Made by a program: the position numbers and the translations under genes | From: a virus | Virus record (IMG/VR): IMGVR_UViG_3300025816_000049 | Span: 1 to 31,107 of that record | Direction: 5' to 3' (one strand) | Length of the DNA stretch: 31,107 bases | Shown here: piece by piece, positions 3,898-19,752 of the stretch | Layout: the number at the start of each line of letters is the position of its first letter | Numbering within the stretch: position 1 is the stretch's first letter | Notes under the pieces: generated by a model | What the model was told of the DNA's origin: nothing | The model's database searches: none | What the model saw: only the letters and a program-made list of their open reading frames with translations

Positions 3898-4091
3898 GTA
3901 TCGCAGAAATTTTAAGTCTTCGTTTTCAATTTGAAGAAATTATTCAAAACTTTGTTATTCCTGATAACAGAAAAGCAAGTATTTTAGAAAATATCATATG
4001 GTTTAAAAAATATGGCAATAGAAAAAATAGATTTAGAACTGGTTATGATCAAGCTATGGAAATTGCTAATAAAATTTTAAAGAACATTTAA
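3894..4091 (+). CDS. small hypothetical protein, 65 aa
   Basis: ATG at 3894 overlaps the HAD gene stop. The protein is helical and basic at the C-terminus (RKNRFRTGYDQAMEIANKIL). Not recognised. It ends 10 nt before the first base-paired segment of the permuted tmRNA gene, so the tmRNA could be transcribed by readthrough from this operon. Confidence 0.7.
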   Translation: MSIAEILSLRFQFEEIIQNFVIPDNRKASILENIIWFKKYGNRKNRFRTGYDQAMEIANKILKNI

Positions 4092-4100
4092 CTTATATAT

Positions 4101-4167
4101 ACTATGTAGTTGATGATATTAACTAGATGCATACTGGACTCGGGGGCGGTACCCGACAGCTCCACCA
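4101..4167 (+). ncRNA. ssrA: permuted tmRNA: acceptor (3') piece
   Basis: The segment ends in CAGCTCC + ACCA (4157-4167), the alanine-type tmRNA acceptor end; CAGCTCC pairs with GGGGCTG at 4308-4314, which lies downstream rather than upstream. A five-pair T stem (TCGGG 4140-4144 with CCCGA 4152-4156) encloses a 7-nt loop GGCGGTA that lacks the usual TTC. Upstream bases 4102-4107 and 4118-4122 can pair with 4342-4347 and 4332-4336 of the coding piece. The 5' boundary is approximate. The order acceptor-spacer-coding piece is the circularly permuted, two-RNA tmRNA layout. Confidence 0.87.
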
Positions 4168-4182
4168 TAAGGACACTAAATA

Positions 4183-4320
4183 ATGGACTTTCATTGGATA
4201 AGTTGGACTAAAGGAGAACCCTTTCAATGGGGAGATTTTAGATACAATAACGGTAATCCATATAAAAATTACCGTATTGGTCCGTTACTTATTCGTGTCT
4301 TTTTGAGGGGGCTGAAATAG
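4183..4320 (+). CDS. 45-aa ORF inside the tmRNA intervening segment
   Basis: ATG at 4183 follows AAGGA (4169-4173) with about 9 nt spacing, and the frame runs 45 codons to TAG at 4318-4320. The product is Trp/Tyr/Phe-rich with a basic hydrophobic end (IGPLLIRVFLRGLK), not an obvious random translation. Nearly all of the 140-nt segment between the two tmRNA pieces is this ORF, and its last 13 nt are the first bases of the tmRNA coding piece. Cleavage to form the tmRNA 5' end would therefore cut this message. Not recognised. Confidence 0.5.
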   Translation: MDFHWISWTKGEPFQWGDFRYNNGNPYKNYRIGPLLIRVFLRGLK

Positions 4321-4478
4321 GATCGACAGGTGTTGACGGAAACATGGAGACTATCCCGATCTAAGCTGGGTTAACGCGAAGAACTTTACAAGTGCAAACA
4401 ATAATTGTGCTCCATCTGGTTACGCCCTAGCGGCCTAACACAGGGGGTTGGCGACTTACCTAGCAACAGAAAAGTCGT
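4308..4478 (+). ncRNA. ssrA: permuted tmRNA: coding (tag) piece
   Basis: It begins GGGGCTG followed by AAATAGGATCGACAGG, the conserved tmRNA 5' tRNA-like half. The tag frame starts at GCA 4394 and ends TAA 4436-4438, encoding ANNNCAPSGYALAA, whose YALAA end is the classic ClpXP degron. The stop lies in a hairpin region (CCCT/AGGG), as in known tmRNAs. The piece closes with a 6-bp hairpin (CGACTT 4452-4457, AAGTCG 4472-4477). Function by family knowledge: rescue of stalled ribosomes and tagging of the nascent chain, with SmpB. The 3' end is approximate. Confidence 0.92.
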
Positions 4479-4488
4479 ACTTATTTTT
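4451..4488 (+). terminator. hairpin plus T-rich run after tmRNA
   Basis: CGACTT/AAGTCG stem with a 14-nt loop is followed by TTATTTTT. It may terminate the tmRNA transcript or form the 3' end of the coding piece. The late promoter begins two bases later. Confidence 0.45.
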
Positions 4489-4489
4489 G

Positions 4490-4497
4490 TATAAATA
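4490..4497 (+). promoter_or_regulatory. T4-type late promoter
   Basis: TATAAATA, the gp55-type late promoter core, lies 25 bp before the lipoprotein start (4522) with AGGAG between. It separates the tmRNA from the late block downstream. Confidence 0.8.
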
Positions 4498-4521
4498 GTA
4501 TCGATAGACAGGAGTTTAACT

Positions 4522-5103
4522 ATGAGTAAACAACTATTGATATTGATATTATTAACACTAGCAGCATGCACATCAAAGCCTATTGTTTTGTATGCGCAAA
4601 CTGTAATAGACTCCACAACTGATAGTAAAAGCAAAACAGACTCTAAGGGTAGAACAATTGTAATTTCTCCTCCACCAAGTGCTATTTCTCCAAGTGCTGG
4701 AGGTAGTTCTCAAGATTTATGTACTGTTGGCATATCAGGTGCAGTACAAACACAAATTTTAGGTATATCAACTGGAGAAACTGTTACCGATCAGAATTGT
4801 GAAAGACTTAAAATATCAAAAACATTATATGACTTTGGAATGAAAGTTGCGGCAGTATCGGTCTTATGTCAAGACCGTAGAGTATACGATGCTATGGGAA
4901 TGGCAGGAACACCTTGTCCAATTTATGGTAAAATTGGCGAAGACGCAAAGGTTGAATGGAAAAAGCCATCAGGCAAAAAGAAAATTCCTGCAATAATTAT
5001 TCCGGAGACAAAAGCAGATGTTCAGAAAAGGCAATGGGATACTGGCAAAAGTGCTATTGGCGGTGCTCTTCTTATGCTTCTTTTGCTTGCCGCTGCCGGC
5101 TAG
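4522..5103 (+). CDS. lipoprotein, conserved in marine T4-like phages
   Basis: This 193-aa protein has a short signal peptide with lipobox LAAC (residues 13-16), predicting lipid attachment in the cell envelope. A Ser/Thr/Lys linker and a Pro/Ser stretch (ISPPPSAISPS) follow, then a conserved-looking domain (LCTVGISGAVQTQILGI ... NCERLKISKTLYDFGMKVAAVSVLCQD) with paired cysteines. The end is hydrophobic (GGALLMLLLLAAAG). From memory similar proteins recur in marine T4-like phages next to tail or envelope-interaction genes; function unknown. It has its own late promoter. Confidence 0.82.
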   Translation: MSKQLLILILLTLAACTSKPIVLYAQTVIDSTTDSKSKTDSKGRTIVISPPPSAISPSAGGSSQDLCTVGISGAVQTQILGISTGETVTDQNCERLKISKTLYDFGMKVAAVSVLCQDRRVYDAMGMAGTPCPIYGKIGEDAKVEWKKPSGKKKIPAIIIPETKADVQKRQWDTGKSAIGGALLMLLLLAAAG

Positions 5104-7018
5104 CTCTCAAGATTTAGTTTTAGAATCCACAAGTACACCAACCTCTTCTGGTGGTGCACCTACGTACGTAACAAATAATGATGGATCAATAACCACTAGT
5201 CCAGAAATTGGCGATCTTACTGATGGTACTATAACAATGGGTGCATGTGATGGTGGTTCAACACATTTAAATTTAATACCTTCGACTAGTAATACATGGG
5301 GCGGAAATGCTTTACAATGGGGAGCTTGTGCTGATAGCTTTGCATTAGGAATAGCTATAAATGAAGCTCTTTCAGATGCTGGTACTGGAATAAGTTTAGA
5401 TAAAATTCACTATCGTTGGAAATGGATAAATGGGTGTTTTAACGTAACTAAATCAGATGGTACTCAAATATATTGTGATGCTGATATATCAAGTAGACTT
5501 GATGAGAATATGAAAGCTACTGGTGAATATGCTGACCAGCTAGATACGTTAAATATTGTTGTTACTTTAACAGATGCTGCAGGAAATGTTGTAAAAACTA
5601 AAACTTATGATTATGATACATGGTATAGTTGGTATGAGGAAAATGCTCATAGTTCAAATGAAGAAGTAGAAGGTGGATCTGTATGGCAAATAGAACAAGA
5701 CTATATGGAGATATTTAATCATCTTACAGGATCTGGAACAATTTATACGCCAGCACAATTAGGTAATATTACATTTGTTACAACTGCACAAGACAATGGA
5801 CAATGGAACGGGTATTATGGTCCTGTAGTAAAAGATGGATCTATGTGGTTTACATATAGAAATAATCCTTGTGATTTAGACACTTTATATAATCCTACGT
5901 GCCCAGGCTATGCAGAAGCATATGTAGCATATCTTTATAATAAAGCTTGTGAAGCTGATACTTTATATGATTCTGGATGCCCAGGATACGATACAGCATA
6001 TCTTAATCAACAATGTAATATAGATCAGTTATATTCGCCATCTTGTCCTTTATATCAGGTTGCTTATTATAATCAACAATGTGAATTAGATAGTCAATAT
6101 GATCTGGGTTGTCCGAATTATATTGCTCCTAGCACAGAAAGCAATGTAGCAGTAACAGCCCCAGAGTCAATAGAAGAAATATTAGCAGAAACTAATATTA
6201 CATCTCAACCTATTGCTGAACTAAATGTTATTGTAGTACCAGATATTCCTATTATTCAACCAGTTATAATTCCTCAACCAGTAGTTGTAGAAGAAATTCC
6301 GGTTGTAAGTGATATTAGTACAGAATCTATAGAACAAGAAATAGCGCAAATAGAATTACAAGTGGAGGATGCGTCAAATGGACGACCTGAAACGGAAATT
6401 ATTGAATCAAATACCTCCGACTCAAATGGAGGAGATGGAGGAGGAGATTCAGGAGAAGGAGACCCTGGATCCGAGCCAGAGCCAGAGCCGCAAGAAAAAC
6501 CAACCGAGCCAGAAAAGAATGACGAATCTGAATCCGATACTGATGGAAAAAGTAAAGAATCATCCGATGATGAATCGAGCGAGTCCGAGAGTGATGACGG
6601 AGAAGAAAAAGACACTGGGGAAGATACTAGCTCTGAAGATAGTGATGAAAAGACTGAAAAAGATGAATCAGTAGATGAAAAACCAGCACCTAAAAAGCAA
6701 GATAAAAAACCTGAGCCTAGTGAAAAAGAAAAAAAAGATAGTAGAACAGAAAAGATTAAGGCCTTAGTTGCTGCTAAAATTGAAGGATTAAGAAAAAAAA
6801 TAGACAACGCAGATACAATTGAAGAGCAAATGGTAATTCAAGCACAGCTGCTAGCATTAATAGCATTTGTACCTGATTTCGATTATGGTGAAATGGAAGT
6901 ACCAGATATTTATTTCTATCCACCTAAGCCAACAGTTGATCATGAATTTTCAAGATGGTTTGTAAATGATCCTACATTCGGTGCGATGGAAGATTTACAA
7001 TATCCGAATTTAAGGTAA
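5018..7018 (+). CDS. large secreted protein with Cys-Pro repeats and acidic disordered region
   Basis: This 666-aa protein begins with a strong signal peptide (residues 1-30, ending LPASSQ). Residues about 50-280 form a domain rich in Gly, Asp and Trp. Four tandem units of about 23 residues follow (5870-6124), each with C-x5-Y-x3-CP-x-Y. Residues about 460-590 are an extremely acidic Ser/Glu/Asp/Pro segment, then a helical part and a C-terminal Tyr/Pro-rich part. Function unknown; surface or virion-associated adhesion is a guess. The signal peptide is read from the same DNA as the hydrophobic tail of the preceding lipoprotein (86-nt overlap). Confidence 0.85.
   Translation: MFRKGNGILAKVLLAVLFLCFFCLPLPASSQDLVLESTSTPTSSGGAPTYVTNNDGSITTSPEIGDLTDGTITMGACDGGSTHLNLIPSTSNTWGGNALQWGACADSFALGIAINEALSDAGTGISLDKIHYRWKWINGCFNVTKSDGTQIYCDADISSRLDENMKATGEYADQLDTLNIVVTLTDAAGNVVKTKTYDYDTWYSWYEENAHSSNEEVEGGSVWQIEQDYMEIFNHLTGSGTIYTPAQLGNITFVTTAQDNGQWNGYYGPVVKDGSMWFTYRNNPCDLDTLYNPTCPGYAEAYVAYLYNKACEADTLYDSGCPGYDTAYLNQQCNIDQLYSPSCPLYQVAYYNQQCELDSQYDLGCPNYIAPSTESNVAVTAPESIEEILAETNITSQPIAELNVIVVPDIPIIQPVIIPQPVVVEEIPVVSDISTESIEQEIAQIELQVEDASNGRPETEIIESNTSDSNGGDGGGDSGEGDPGSEPEPEPQEKPTEPEKNDESESDTDGKSKESSDDESSESESDDGEEKDTGEDTSSEDSDEKTEKDESVDEKPAPKKQDKKPEPSEKEKKDSRTEKIKALVAAKIEGLRKKIDNADTIEEQMVIQAQLLALIAFVPDFDYGEMEVPDIYFYPPKPTVDHEFSRWFVNDPTFGAMEDLQYPNLR
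5870..6124 (+). repeat. four tandem Cys-Pro coding repeats
   Basis: Four consecutive coding units of roughly 60-70 nt encode C-x5-Y-x3-CP-x-Y-x2-A-Y patterns (for example CDLDTLYNPTCPGYAEAY). The spacing of two Cys per unit suggests one disulfide per repeat outside the cytoplasm. The DNA repeats are diverged, so the array is old. Confidence 0.8.
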
Positions 7019-7022
7019 TGGC

Positions 7023-7337
7023 ATGTTAGAATTAGGATTAGCTTTAACTCTTCATTTAAATATGAATCAAGACTACAATGAATTTCATCCTTATGGAAAA
7101 TTCAGTTATCAAGACTATAATATTGGAGCATTTTACAATAGTGAAAAAAATATGAGTTATTTTGTTTCTTCTGATATTTATTTTAATAATGATTTAAGTG
7201 CAGAGGTTGGAATTGTAAGCGGATATTATAAAGATATATTGCCACTTATAAGATTAAAATATAAAACATTTTTTATAATGCCAAGTATTGAAAATAAAAA
7301 AATAGGAATAGTTGTTGGAAAAGAAATTAAATTTTAA
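7023..7337 (+). CDS. beta-barrel-like hypothetical protein, 104 aa
   Basis: The start is ATG at 7023, 4 nt after the previous stop. The sequence is a run of alternating polar/hydrophobic strands (YGKFSYQDYNIGAFYN, SYFVSSDIYFNNDLSAEVGIV, IRLKYKTFFIMPS) ending in a basic F-terminal strand (VVGKEIKF), the pattern of small outer-membrane barrels. No clear signal peptide, although the first 12 residues are hydrophobic. Function unknown; it belongs to the late envelope/tail block. Confidence 0.72.
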   Translation: MLELGLALTLHLNMNQDYNEFHPYGKFSYQDYNIGAFYNSEKNMSYFVSSDIYFNNDLSAEVGIVSGYYKDILPLIRLKYKTFFIMPSIENKKIGIVVGKEIKF

Positions 7338-14517: not shown

Positions 14518-15693
14518 TTGTATTGTAGAATGCCCCACGCAGGTTTAACACTTCAACCTAACGGTGATATTGGTCTTTGTTGCGCGGCTTGGCAAAAAAT
14601 GGAATTTGGTCATATATCAAAAATCGATAGCATTAAAGAAATATGGGAAAATGATCCTAAGCTTTTAATGTTAAAGGAAGATGAACCGTATTTAGTACAG
14701 CAAGCGTGTGGTACATGTTTAAAAAAATCTAAACAAAATCTTGATTGGCAATGGGGACTTTGGAATATTCCAAAGAACGGTTCTTACAGAAAAGAAGTAG
14801 GTGAGTTAGACGGTAAGCTTAAGTTTCTAGAATTTACAACATCTAATATTTGTAATCAAACATGTATTACTTGTTCAAGCTATTTTAGTTCAAAATGGAA
14901 ATCTGTTGAACAACAGATTCTGCGTGAAGGTATTCCACTTTATGATTGGAAAACTCATGAACATGGCTTCGGCGCTTATGGTTATGATCATTATAGAATG
15001 ACTGATTCTGACATCGATAAAATTATAGAAATTCTACCAGACCTTAGAATAATTTCTATAAAAGGTGGAGAACCTTTTGCTGATAAAAATAATTTTAGAA
15101 TTTTAGAAGAGTTAAAAAAAGTAAATCCTTCTTGCATTATTAAAGTCAATAGTAATTTTTCAAAAATTCCAAAAAAATTTGTTGATGTTTTAAAAAACTT
15201 TGAATGCCAAATTACAGTGTCAACTGACGGAATTAATAAATCATACGAATATATAAGATCTACTAAGTTTAAAAATACTATTGATAACATGAAAATGTGG
15301 AAAGAAGAAATTGGAGGAAAAATAGCAATAGCTTCAATAATTAGTATTTACAATATGTACGATATAGAAGAAACATGTGATTATTGGGAAAAAAGTCCTT
15401 ATGTTGATTATTGTAATATTAGAGGATTTGTGTTTAATCCAGACTTTGTTTCACCATTATCTTTATTAAAAGAAGAGCAGCTTGATGAATGGATATATAA
15501 TACTAATCAATATATTTCTAATATGCAATCACGTAAAATTCAATACAACTTATTAAAACATGTTAATCATAAAAATATTAATGAATTAGAAAAAAATAAA
15601 GTAGTATCAAAATTTCATTCATATACTAAATTTATGAATAAATATAGAAAAATTAATATATATGATATACATCCACAATTAAAAGATATATAA
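14518..15693 (+). CDS. radical SAM protein with twitch domain
   Basis: This 391-aa protein starts at TTG 14518 after GAAAGGATATACAA. The N-terminal part (CRMPHAGLTLQPNGDIGLCC ... ACGTCLKK, C3, C21/C22, C64, C67) resembles a SPASM/twitch auxiliary cluster region placed before the core. The radical SAM cluster motif is CNQTCITC (CX3CX2C, about residues 113-120), then ISIKGGEPFADKN (the GGEP motif) and STDG. It would cleave S-adenosylmethionine to start radical chemistry. The substrate is unknown; peptide modification is the commonest role of twitch/SPASM enzymes. Confidence 0.85.
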   Translation: MYCRMPHAGLTLQPNGDIGLCCAAWQKMEFGHISKIDSIKEIWENDPKLLMLKEDEPYLVQQACGTCLKKSKQNLDWQWGLWNIPKNGSYRKEVGELDGKLKFLEFTTSNICNQTCITCSSYFSSKWKSVEQQILREGIPLYDWKTHEHGFGAYGYDHYRMTDSDIDKIIEILPDLRIISIKGGEPFADKNNFRILEELKKVNPSCIIKVNSNFSKIPKKFVDVLKNFECQITVSTDGINKSYEYIRSTKFKNTIDNMKMWKEEIGGKIAIASIISIYNMYDIEETCDYWEKSPYVDYCNIRGFVFNPDFVSPLSLLKEEQLDEWIYNTNQYISNMQSRKIQYNLLKHVNHKNINELEKNKVVSKFHSYTKFMNKYRKINIYDIHPQLKDI

Positions 15694-16487: not shown

Positions 16488-16689
16488 AAGAATAAAATTA
16501 TTTATTGCTTGGTATAAACAATTAAGGGAAAGGAGACATGAATTTCCTTTCCCTTGGTACTATCACACTTCATATAATATTTGGAATTGTTTTCGTTGGG
16601 CTGTATATAATTCAGCTAATAATGATATTAATGGAAATTACTTGTATAAATATTCCCAATGTGGCAAATATAAGAAAAGGATAAGATAG
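16480..16689 (+). CDS. small basic hypothetical protein, 69 aa
   Basis: TTG at 16480, overlapping the preceding gene, is the best available start. The protein is rich in Arg, Trp and Tyr (WYKQLRERRHEFPFPWYYHT). Not recognised. A TATAAATA sequence (16645-16652) lies inside its 3' end and appears to serve the next gene. Confidence 0.6.
   Translation: MNRRIKLFIAWYKQLRERRHEFPFPWYYHTSYNIWNCFRWAVYNSANNDINGNYLYKYSQCGKYKKRIR
16645..16652 (+). promoter_or_regulatory. T4-type late promoter before the synthetase-like gene
   Basis: TATAAATA lies 37 bp upstream of GTG 16689, inside the previous gene. The exact match and its position make a late promoter for the synthetase-tRNA pair plausible. Confidence 0.6.
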
Positions 16690-17513
16690 TGACACAGTTG
16701 ATTGAACCAAAAAAATTTACGAAAGCAGCTGACCTTTTAAGGTCATTTTTTTTAAATAGAGGCTTTCAAGAAGTACATACCCAAAATCGTTTAAGTATTT
16801 TAGCGGCGTGCGAAGATCCAGAAAATGTAGCAACATATAATTATGAAGGGCAAATATGGCCTCTTCCTCAAACTGGCCAGATGTGGTTGGAATATGAATT
16901 ATTAACTCGCCCCTCTTCGAAGGGGTTTTTTTGTATCTCAACTTCATACAGACAAGAACCAAATGCAATTCCTGGAAGACACGATACAATTTTTCCAATG
17001 TTTGAATTTGAAATGCCAGGAGACTTTGAAGATCTTAAAGTAATGGAAAGACAACTTTGTGCTTATATGGGATTTGATGATTTGACAGAAAAAACTTATG
17101 CTGAGTGGCAGGAAAATTATTCATTACCTTTAGATAAAGAGCTTACAGCTGATCATGAACTAGCAATGTACTATGAATATAAAAGCTGTATGATCACAGA
17201 TTTTCCAGAAATAACTAGTCCATTTTGGAATATGTCAAGGAATGAAGACGGAACAAGCAAAAAAATAGATGTCATTCTTGGTGGCATGGAAACAATTGGC
17301 AGCGCTGAAAGATCTACAGATGTTAAGCAAATGAGAGATACATTTCATACTATTTCAAACGGCGAATATGCCGGTCTTATTAACAAGTTATTTGGTAAAG
17401 ATCGTGTTGAAGCTGAACTTGAAAAGTTTCTTGAATTTGATTTCTTTCCAAGAGTTGGTGGTGGAATAGGTATGACCCGCATGATCAGTGCGCTCGATAC
17501 TCTTAAAAAATAA
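16689..17513 (+). CDS. free-standing class IIb aminoacyl-tRNA synthetase core (AsnRS/AspRS/asparagine-synthetase-A-like)
   Basis: This 274-aa protein starts at GTG 16689 (AAAGGATAAGATA upstream) and shows all three class II motifs: motif 1 LLRSFFLNRGFQEVHT (about 16-31), motif 2 TSYRQEP...GRHDTIFPMFEFE (85-108; R88, E90, R97, H98) and motif 3 VGGGIGMTRMISAL (256-269; R264). QTGQMWLEYELL and GGMETIGSAERSTD match the Asp/Asn/Lys subgroup. The N-terminal OB-fold anticodon-binding domain is absent. It could charge a tRNA or, like archaeal AsnRS-derived AsnA, make asparagine from aspartate and ammonia. The Asn-anticodon tRNA 6 nt downstream favours a link to asparagine either way. Confidence 0.85.
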   Translation: MTQLIEPKKFTKAADLLRSFFLNRGFQEVHTQNRLSILAACEDPENVATYNYEGQIWPLPQTGQMWLEYELLTRPSSKGFFCISTSYRQEPNAIPGRHDTIFPMFEFEMPGDFEDLKVMERQLCAYMGFDDLTEKTYAEWQENYSLPLDKELTADHELAMYYEYKSCMITDFPEITSPFWNMSRNEDGTSKKIDVILGGMETIGSAERSTDVKQMRDTFHTISNGEYAGLINKLFGKDRVEAELEKFLEFDFFPRVGGGIGMTRMISALDTLKK

Positions 17514-17519
17514 GAATAA

Positions 17520-17628
17520 TCCGAGGTGGTGGAATGGTAGACACGCCGTACTGTTTATACGGTGAATCAAATGTACCCGCAAAAGTATATTTATATTCGT
17601 GAAGGTTCGAATCCTTCCCTCGGAGCCA
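17520..17628 (+). tRNA. atypical tRNA, anticodon GUU (Asn) on a class II Leu-like scaffold
   Basis: A 109-nt tRNA with encoded CCA. Acceptor TCCGAGG/CCTCGGA with discriminator G, D stem GTG/CAC with a Leu-type loop, anticodon stem CCGTA/TACGG around CTGTTTA (anticodon GTT 17553-17555; position 37 is U), T stem GAAGG/CCTTC with TTCGAAT. The variable region is 38 nt (17563-17600) and folds into a 12-bp arm (GAAT/ATTC, then AAATGTAC/GTATATTT). Bacterial tRNA-Asn normally has a 5-nt variable loop. The U1-A72 pair, G73 and GUU are Asn-type; the body is Leu-type. Confidence 0.88.
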
Positions 17629-18984: not shown

Positions 18985-19752
18985 ATGGCACAACCAATAA
19001 ATCAATTAAGTTTTAAAGCCAGAAGCCTCTTGTTTGCTCGACTATCAGCAATTGCGTACTCCGACCTTAAAGAAGCTAAGGCCGCTGCCCGCAGACTCGA
19101 ATTTAATACAATTGAATTTTATGATGTCAATGGCGCACAGGCATACAGATTTATGAATAAGTATGATTGTATCATCGCGTGTCGAGGAACTCAACCAAAC
19201 GAATTCAATGACATTAAAGCTGATTTACAATCTATTCCAGTAATGGCTGAAACTGTCTCACGAGTTCATAAAGGGTTTAAGGCCGAGGTCGACGAACTTT
19301 GGCCCGCGATATGTGAAGATCTAAATAGAAAACAAAATAATAGCAAAACATTATGGTTTTGTGGTCACTCGCTTGGAGCTGGAATGGCCACTATTATGTC
19401 GTCAAGATGTTTACATAATTTATTTCTAAAAGATCCGGTTGAGTTATATACATTCGGTTCACCTCGCGTAGGATTTAAAAAATATTGTAATTCTCTTGGT
19501 GTAATTCATCATAGGTTTGTAAATAATAACGATGTTGTTACACGTGTGCCTTTGGTAATGATGGGCTATAGACATCATGGAACAGAGCATTATATGAATT
19601 CTAATGGGGAATTTGTAAATGTATCTGGTTTTAAAAGAATTTGGGATAGATTAAAAGGCATGGCTGCCGGTATTATAAAATTAAAAATAGATAATTTTAG
19701 CGATCATAGTATGGATTGTTATATAAAAAACATAAAAAATATGAAAGAGTAG
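18985..19752 (+). CDS. class 3 lipase-like alpha/beta hydrolase
   Basis: This 255-aa protein has the lipase_3 plan: CRGTQ oxyanion segment (66-70), nucleophile elbow GHSLG (S129), YTFGSPRVG, the acid NNNDVVTRVP (D183) and the base in DHSMDCY (H241). It would hydrolyse acylglycerols or phospholipids. No signal peptide is visible, so action on the inner membrane from inside, or release at lysis, is inferred. It has its own late promoter and sits after the injected-nuclease block. Confidence 0.88.
   Translation: MAQPINQLSFKARSLLFARLSAIAYSDLKEAKAAARRLEFNTIEFYDVNGAQAYRFMNKYDCIIACRGTQPNEFNDIKADLQSIPVMAETVSRVHKGFKAEVDELWPAICEDLNRKQNNSKTLWFCGHSLGAGMATIMSSRCLHNLFLKDPVELYTFGSPRVGFKKYCNSLGVIHHRFVNNNDVVTRVPLVMMGYRHHGTEHYMNSNGEFVNVSGFKRIWDRLKGMAAGIIKLKIDNFSDHSMDCYIKNIKNMKE

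Follow-up and report, generated by a model that had tools for sequence, protein, structure and literature searches.

A phage gene for a core-only AsnRS-like protein and an adjoining class II tRNA-Asn as a candidate dedicated pair

A gene for a class IIb aminoacyl-tRNA synthetase-like protein and a class II tRNA gene with an asparagine anticodon lie next to each other in the 31,107-nucleotide stretch of viral DNA analysed here (IMG/VR record IMGVR_UViG_3300025816_000049, positions 1–31,107; the window), and the two most likely form one functional unit that is conserved and reciprocal in phages. The enzyme is predicted to charge the tRNA with asparagine for phage translation, a reading that is given about an even chance (roughly 0.5). 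Its basis is sequence and structure comparison: the core-only architecture of the protein, a pocket of the asparaginyl-tRNA synthetase (AsnRS) type, a tRNA fold with GUU and a near-obligate two-way linkage in phages. The features are collected in Table 1.

Table 1. Positions in the window of the synthetase-like protein gene, its motifs and the downstream tRNA.
Feature	Position	Strand	Basis
Core-only class IIb aminoacyl-tRNA synthetase-like protein, AsnRS-type pocket	16689..17513	+	PF00152, phrog_29758, AF2, structure match
SILAACEDP, codons 36–44, counterpart of the substrate-covering (flipping) loop	16794..16820	+	Assigned by eye
L67-E68, AsnRS-type swap for AspRS K198-Q199	16887..16892	+	Invariant, 64/64
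Motif 2 region (R88, E90) through E106/E108	16926..17012	+	E106 for AspRS D233, as in AsnRS
Motif 3 region with R264	17451..17501	+	Invariant in alignment A3 and in 64/64 sequences
Class II tRNA-Asn(GUU), encoded CCA, U1-A72, G73	17520..17628	+	Covariance model (CM) R1, covariation, conserved position
Anticodon GTT	17553..17555	+	Sequence; GTT in 106/107 unfiltered relatives
38-nt giant variable region forming a hairpin (GCAA loop; TATTTA in the 3' strand)	17563..17600	+	Sequence; relatives

The protein is encoded by a GTG-start open reading frame of 274 codons. Its sole Pfam match is to tRNA-synt_2 (D, K, N) (PF00152; E-value 1.1 × 10−14), and Pfam found neither an OB nor an N-terminal anticodon-binding domain in the 274 residues, the whole length being core; the synthetase core without anticodon-binding domain that had been proposed from the sequence alone is thus borne out. 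A strong match to phrog_29758 (E-value 3 × 10−131) leads to PHROG 29758, which has no assigned function. Proteins of the family are strongly acidic, with a median pI of 4.7.

Residue roles were transferred by eye from established work on AspRS and AsnRS. Glu42, which we take to be the counterpart of the glutamate that binds the α-amino group in these enzymes (matched by eye to the known AspRS residues), is invariant among 64 phage and cellular sequences, as are the motif 2 and motif 3 arginines, R88 and R264, and the pocket residues L67, E68 and E106; phage and cellular members do not differ in their catalytic residues. An Asn-type pocket has no equivalent of AspRS Lys198, a glutamate at the next position and a glutamate in place of Asp233, and this is the combination found in L67/E68/E106. 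At the same Asn/Asp-discriminating site, Brugia AsnRS has 'LE' where AspRS has 'KQ'.

The AF2 model built from a 36-sequence alignment has a pLDDT of 91.6, against 38 when no alignment is used. The top PDB matches of the AF2 core in a Foldseek search are AsnRS structures, several of them with Asn-adenylate bound, and VIA Z scores are 27.1 for 8h53 and 25.5 for 1x54; AspRS, EpmA and archaeal asparagine synthetase A follow at Z 23–24, where gaps in Z of less than 1 are ties. These comparisons lead to the prediction that the protein activates asparagine with ATP. The similar size and fold of the archaeal enzyme (AS-AR; Z 23.5 for 3reu) speak for the alternative already named in the sequence-only reading, an AsnA-type asparagine synthetase that has the tRNA as a neighbour by chance. 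This alternative is disfavoured and appears very improbable: at the positions where all 64 family sequences have the AsnRS-type residues, AS-AR has Lys and Asp, as in the Asp-type pocket, AsnRS structures rank higher (Z 26–27), and the score against the NCBIfam asparagine synthetase A model (PRK06462) is 21 bits against a cut-off of 389.

The tRNA gene begins 6 nt after the end of the open reading frame, and its description from the sequence alone, with an Asn anticodon and a giant variable arm, holds (GTT; 38 nt). The anticodon loop reads CTGTTTA, so that position 37 is T rather than the A expected for t6A. A cmsearch run with R1 places the gene at 87 bits, a value that gives placement and no independent test because the R1 training set includes this tRNA. 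ARAGORN missed the gene in the window because of the 38-nt variable region, and it types relatives with shorter arms as tRNA-Asn(gtt).

Compensatory double changes occur at 20 of the 26 base pairs in 22 aligned relatives, and the sequences therefore represent a genuine tRNA family rather than a chance fold. When acceptor and T-arm geometry alone were used, with neither an anticodon nor a discriminator filter, a downstream tRNA was found in 107 of 125 phage or phage-like relatives, with GTT in 106 and G73 in all 107; CM search added the tRNAs of L094 and L128. Within a set of 116 distinct tRNAs that was preselected for GTT and G73, U1-A72 is universal, position 37 is T, A or C in 84, 24 and 8 cases, and the variable region measures either 11–19 or 28–41 nt. 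The same GTT-filtered set contains 34 anticodon-stem types, and this constancy of GTT while the stems vary suggests that the tRNA probably decodes. Every distinct giant arm (52/52) has TATTTA on its 3' strand and 43 of the 52 have a GCAA loop. Arm length nevertheless switches 15 times along the protein tree, and the giant arm is therefore no strict requirement.

The protein gene occurs in many marine phages, and the class II tRNA lies downstream of it in 109 of 125 phage or phage-like relatives, within 20 nt in 101 of them. In the reverse direction, a pattern for the tRNA alone matched at least 119 IMG/VR stretches at the true spacing, against two matches in the whole viral collection for a control pattern with one extra N. 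Examination of 118 tRNA-pattern matches among those listed placed 112 beside the protein gene, five at contig edges and one alone, so that 112 of 113 non-edge matches among those listed adjoin the protein gene. Co-occurrence in other phages, the check proposed in the sequence-only reading, is accordingly found in both directions, and chance adjacency of the two genes is excluded by this two-way test. Other neighbour families never exceed 24 of 112 loci. Divergence of the protein and that of the tRNA are correlated over 50 pairs (Mantel ρ = 0.59, p = 0.001), and the pair is present in the isolated cyanophages P-SSM2, P-SSM5 and P-SSM7.

The tRNA is missing from about 10% of the phage relatives (approximately ten), some of which lie on contigs of 72, 89, 146 and 187 kb. 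Homologues also occur in huge phages (L085, LR756501, 735 kb, 48% identity; L086, LR756508, 484 kb, 43% identity); none of their typed matches is a class II tRNA-Asn, the typed class II tRNAs being tRNA-Leu, and LR756508 has a tRNA-Asn of ordinary length elsewhere in the genome. A class II tRNA-Asn at position 7331 of L305 (IMGVR_UViG_3300035698_009402), a 115-kb record without the protein, adjoins a second tRNA-Asn(gtt) (88 nt).

The family shares GUU, G73 and U1-A72 with bacterial tRNA-Asn and departs from it in two respects: the short-variable-loop class I body is replaced by one with a variable region of 11–41 nt, and the A37 needed for t6A is found in only 24 of the 116 distinct tRNAs and is a T in the window. 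Judged from its sequence, the combination of U1-A72 and G73 is an Asn-like acceptor end. A73 is a determinant for Leu and G1-C72 one for Ser (PMC9976931); G73 therefore argues against LeuRS and U1-A72 against SerRS, and together with GUU they do not fit a tRNA-Leu or tRNA-Ser identity. G34-U35-U36, G73 and U1-A72 are determinants for bacterial AsnRS and for tRNA-dependent amidation (PMC9976931), and retention of this identity set means that host enzymes could charge the tRNA. AsnRS, or AspRS with the amidotransferase, might thus supply it for translation or nuclease evasion, the neighbouring enzyme being merely co-inherited and having another target. The precedent of phage T5, in which tRNA-Asn variants aid the rescue of cells from PARIS (PMC12409363), is in line with this explanation. 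It is nevertheless improbable, because the class II tRNA-Asn is found almost exclusively beside the protein gene, with a single exception among the 113 non-edge matches listed, and because the other neighbours turn over while the pair stays.

Relatives of the protein at 50–60% identity turned up in many phyla when bacterial and archaeal genomes were scanned. No adjacent class II tRNA-Asn was found at these cellular loci, and the best-scoring CM matches typed elsewhere in the carrier genomes are tRNA-Leu; GTT appears among the typed best-scoring matches only for L094 and L128, genomes with phage-like contigs. A phylogeny with AsnRS, AspRS and AS-AR outgroups, as suggested in the sequence-only reading, sets a phage clade (40 rows) apart from the cellular sequences, but its branches are saturated and its root is uninterpretable.

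PyrD, PyrE or PyrF adjoins at least 20 of approximately 75 cellular loci in unrelated phyla, examples being Pasteurella atlantica, Midichloriaceae, Chitinophagaceae, Myxococcota and Dependentiae. Cellular copies sit within or next to clusters of pyr genes (PyrD/E/F, PRTase and Prs) at L112, L105, L107, L110, L096, L141, L144, L147, L154 and L163–L165, for the most part in PyrB-free genomes. PyrB above the cut-off is absent from 11 of the 12 pyr-operon genomes tested, and full-scoring PyrC and CarB are also absent from most of the 12. In P. atlantica (L112; NZ_CP074346, 3604–6892) the gene is followed after 2 nt by PyrF and then by a PRTase, with PyrD divergent; PyrB, PyrC and CarB are absent from the complete genome, in which ornithine carbamoyltransferase is the sole PyrB-like/carbamoyltransferase match. 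A canonical AsnRS is present as well, which excludes replacement of the ordinary cellular AsnRS. A short open reading frame and a terminator-like hairpin precede the gene (L112, 4800–4920) and resemble a pyr-attenuator leader.

Traces of the same neighbourhood occur in phages. A short DHODH-like gene lies 63–590 nt upstream of the pair in some of them (L003, 1280–1969; L002, 5249–5938; L040, 5100–5801; L036, 4701–5411; L094, 5324–6025), encoding proteins of 229–236 residues that are homologous to the short ones of Midichloriaceae pyr operons, and a PRTase is found 122 nt downstream of the pair in some; in L036 and L040 (both 6935–7327) and in L214 (3731–4123) it lies about 20 nt after the class II tRNA. 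The gene order in L036 and L040 is DHODH, synthetase, tRNA and PRTase. DHODH exceeds the cut-off in nine of 48 virus records.

As the cellular relatives are free of the tRNA and many of them sit in pyrimidine operons, the job of this fold in cells lies outside tRNA charging, and an Asn-activating pyrimidine enzyme is a serious rival. It would make orotate or dihydroorotate from asparagine and feed pyrimidine synthesis in place of CarAB, PyrB and PyrC, with phages keeping the role and their tRNA acting as a cofactor, a regulator or a second acceptor of activated asparagine. One guess at the chemistry has asparaginyl-adenylate react with CO2 and the side-chain amide close the ring to dihydroorotate. 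The pyr-linked loci, the P. atlantica cluster, the lack of PyrB, the DHODH-like and PRTase genes flanking the pair in some phages and the identity of catalytic residues between phage and cell members all point in this direction. The explanation is still considered unlikely: it does not account for a near-universal phage partner that is a tRNA and whose decoding anticodon never varies, the complete genomes of P-SSM2 and P-SSM7 contain the pair without DHODH or the PRTase of the other phages, many Patescibacteria copies adjoin dus and dnaX instead of pyr genes, and the absence of genes from incomplete metagenome-assembled genomes is weak evidence. A doubtful extension, rated somewhat lower, is that the AsnRS-derived core makes dihydroorotate directly from asparagine and, in a range of cells, takes the place of carbamoyl-phosphate synthetase, PyrB and PyrC, and that marine phages route the activated asparagine, via their private tRNA, into pyrimidines and translation, or share it.

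For the preferred reading, a pair that charges and uses its own tRNA, we infer asparagine activation, charging of the class II tRNA, its translational use and the reason for its independence. The AsnRS-derived catalytic core would bind L-asparagine and ATP, form asparaginyl-adenylate and load the asparagine onto the class II tRNA that the phage itself encodes. As the protein has no anticodon domain, charging would rest on recognition of the acceptor end (U1-A72 and G73) and of the class II tRNA body. The charged tRNA would then decode AAC and AAU during infection, independently of host AsnRS or of the AspRS and amidotransferase route; the invariant anticodon argues for AAY decoding and makes asparagine the simplest choice of amino acid. 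The unusual tRNA body may serve to keep host synthetases or anticodon nucleases off. Class II synthetases approach tRNA from the variable-loop side, so that a long arm could block access by the AsnRS or AspRS of the host. Loss of A37 could in addition remove nuclease or modification signals, a modified A37 being required by PrrC and UAAU lying within the AriB target site (PMC12409363).

The dedicated pair proposed in the sequence-only reading therefore stands in part. It is supported by the conserved two-way linkage, the correlated divergence, the structural match to AsnRS with Asn-AMP, the core-only enzyme with its AsnRS-type pocket and the arm motif that is kept. Against it stand the pyr-linked, tRNA-free cellular relatives, the tRNA-free tenth of the phage relatives, the acidity of the protein and the switching of arm length. 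Nor is tRNA charging known for any core-only paralogue of class IIb synthetases, whether EpmA or archaeal AsnA. Relatives that carry the genes apart, named in that reading as one observation that would count against it, are found in cells, whereas in phages the genes stay together.

Elsewhere in the window, a radical SAM/SPASM protein is encoded upstream of the pair (14518–15693) and a class 3 lipase at 18985–19752; P-SSM2 and P-SSM5 likewise have a lipase after the pair. A tmRNA call by ARAGORN at 4074–4529, marked with an asterisk, is probably false, and similar calls occur at other loci.

In bacteria, the tRNAs known to have a class II body are those for Leu, Ser, Tyr and Sec. The open-access literature, with few subscription journals covered, yielded nothing on a core AsnRS paired with a class II tRNA-Asn, on a phage class II tRNA-Asn or on an AsnRS-like pyrimidine enzyme, and a family of tRNA-Asn that has a long arm, giant in some members, and is tied to a core-only synthetase appears to be undescribed. 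Should the proposed mode of action hold, the pair would be a candidate orthogonal synthetase–tRNA pair of naturally small size and would show phages setting up a route of their own to a sense codon; a real pyrimidine link would point to a hitherto unknown route within a central pathway.

The only mention of the family protein found in the literature is as 'tRNA ligase' (T4-GC 194; P-SSM2 and P-SSM7) in a table of cyanophage genes, and no discussion of the tRNA partner or of its class II body was found there (PMC3037559). The annotations of P-SSM7 and P-SSM5 do place a tRNA-Asn beside the T4-GC 194 gene. The GenBank P-SSM2 tRNA-Asn (PSSM2_199; AY939844.2, 164094–164179) is about 2 kb away from the true position at 162083–162171.

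Compared with AsnRS, the family has the core fold (Z 27), motifs 2 and 3 and the AsnRS-type pocket, but it lacks the N-terminal OB domain, shows approximately 20% identity and is tied to a class II tRNA; it scores 22 bits against curated AsnRS cut-offs of 343–414 (TIGR00457/NF003037). Archaeal AS-AR (3p8t and 3reu) is likewise a core-only AsnRS relative of similar length, but 3p8t has HKQ and QLD (Lys and Asp) where the family has WLE and E106. EpmA/GenX/PoxA is another core-only class IIb paralogue (Z 23.7), but it acts on EF-P with lysine-type specificity, and the family scores 16–17 bits, far below the 264–287-bit cut-offs of the NCBIfam EF-P lysine aminoacylase (EpmA/GenX) models. The T5 tRNAs that counter PARIS include a phage tRNA-Asn with an altered anticodon loop, as here (U37 or C37 in most), but they are ordinary class I molecules without a companion synthetase. 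PylRS/tRNA-Pyl and SerRS/tRNA-Ser belong to other synthetase subclasses; unlike them, the phage protein has no extra tRNA-binding domain and its partner carries an ordinary sense anticodon for asparagine. In its way of working, the phage pair would nonetheless resemble both systems in joining a synthetase that ignores the anticodon to a tRNA with an unusual body.
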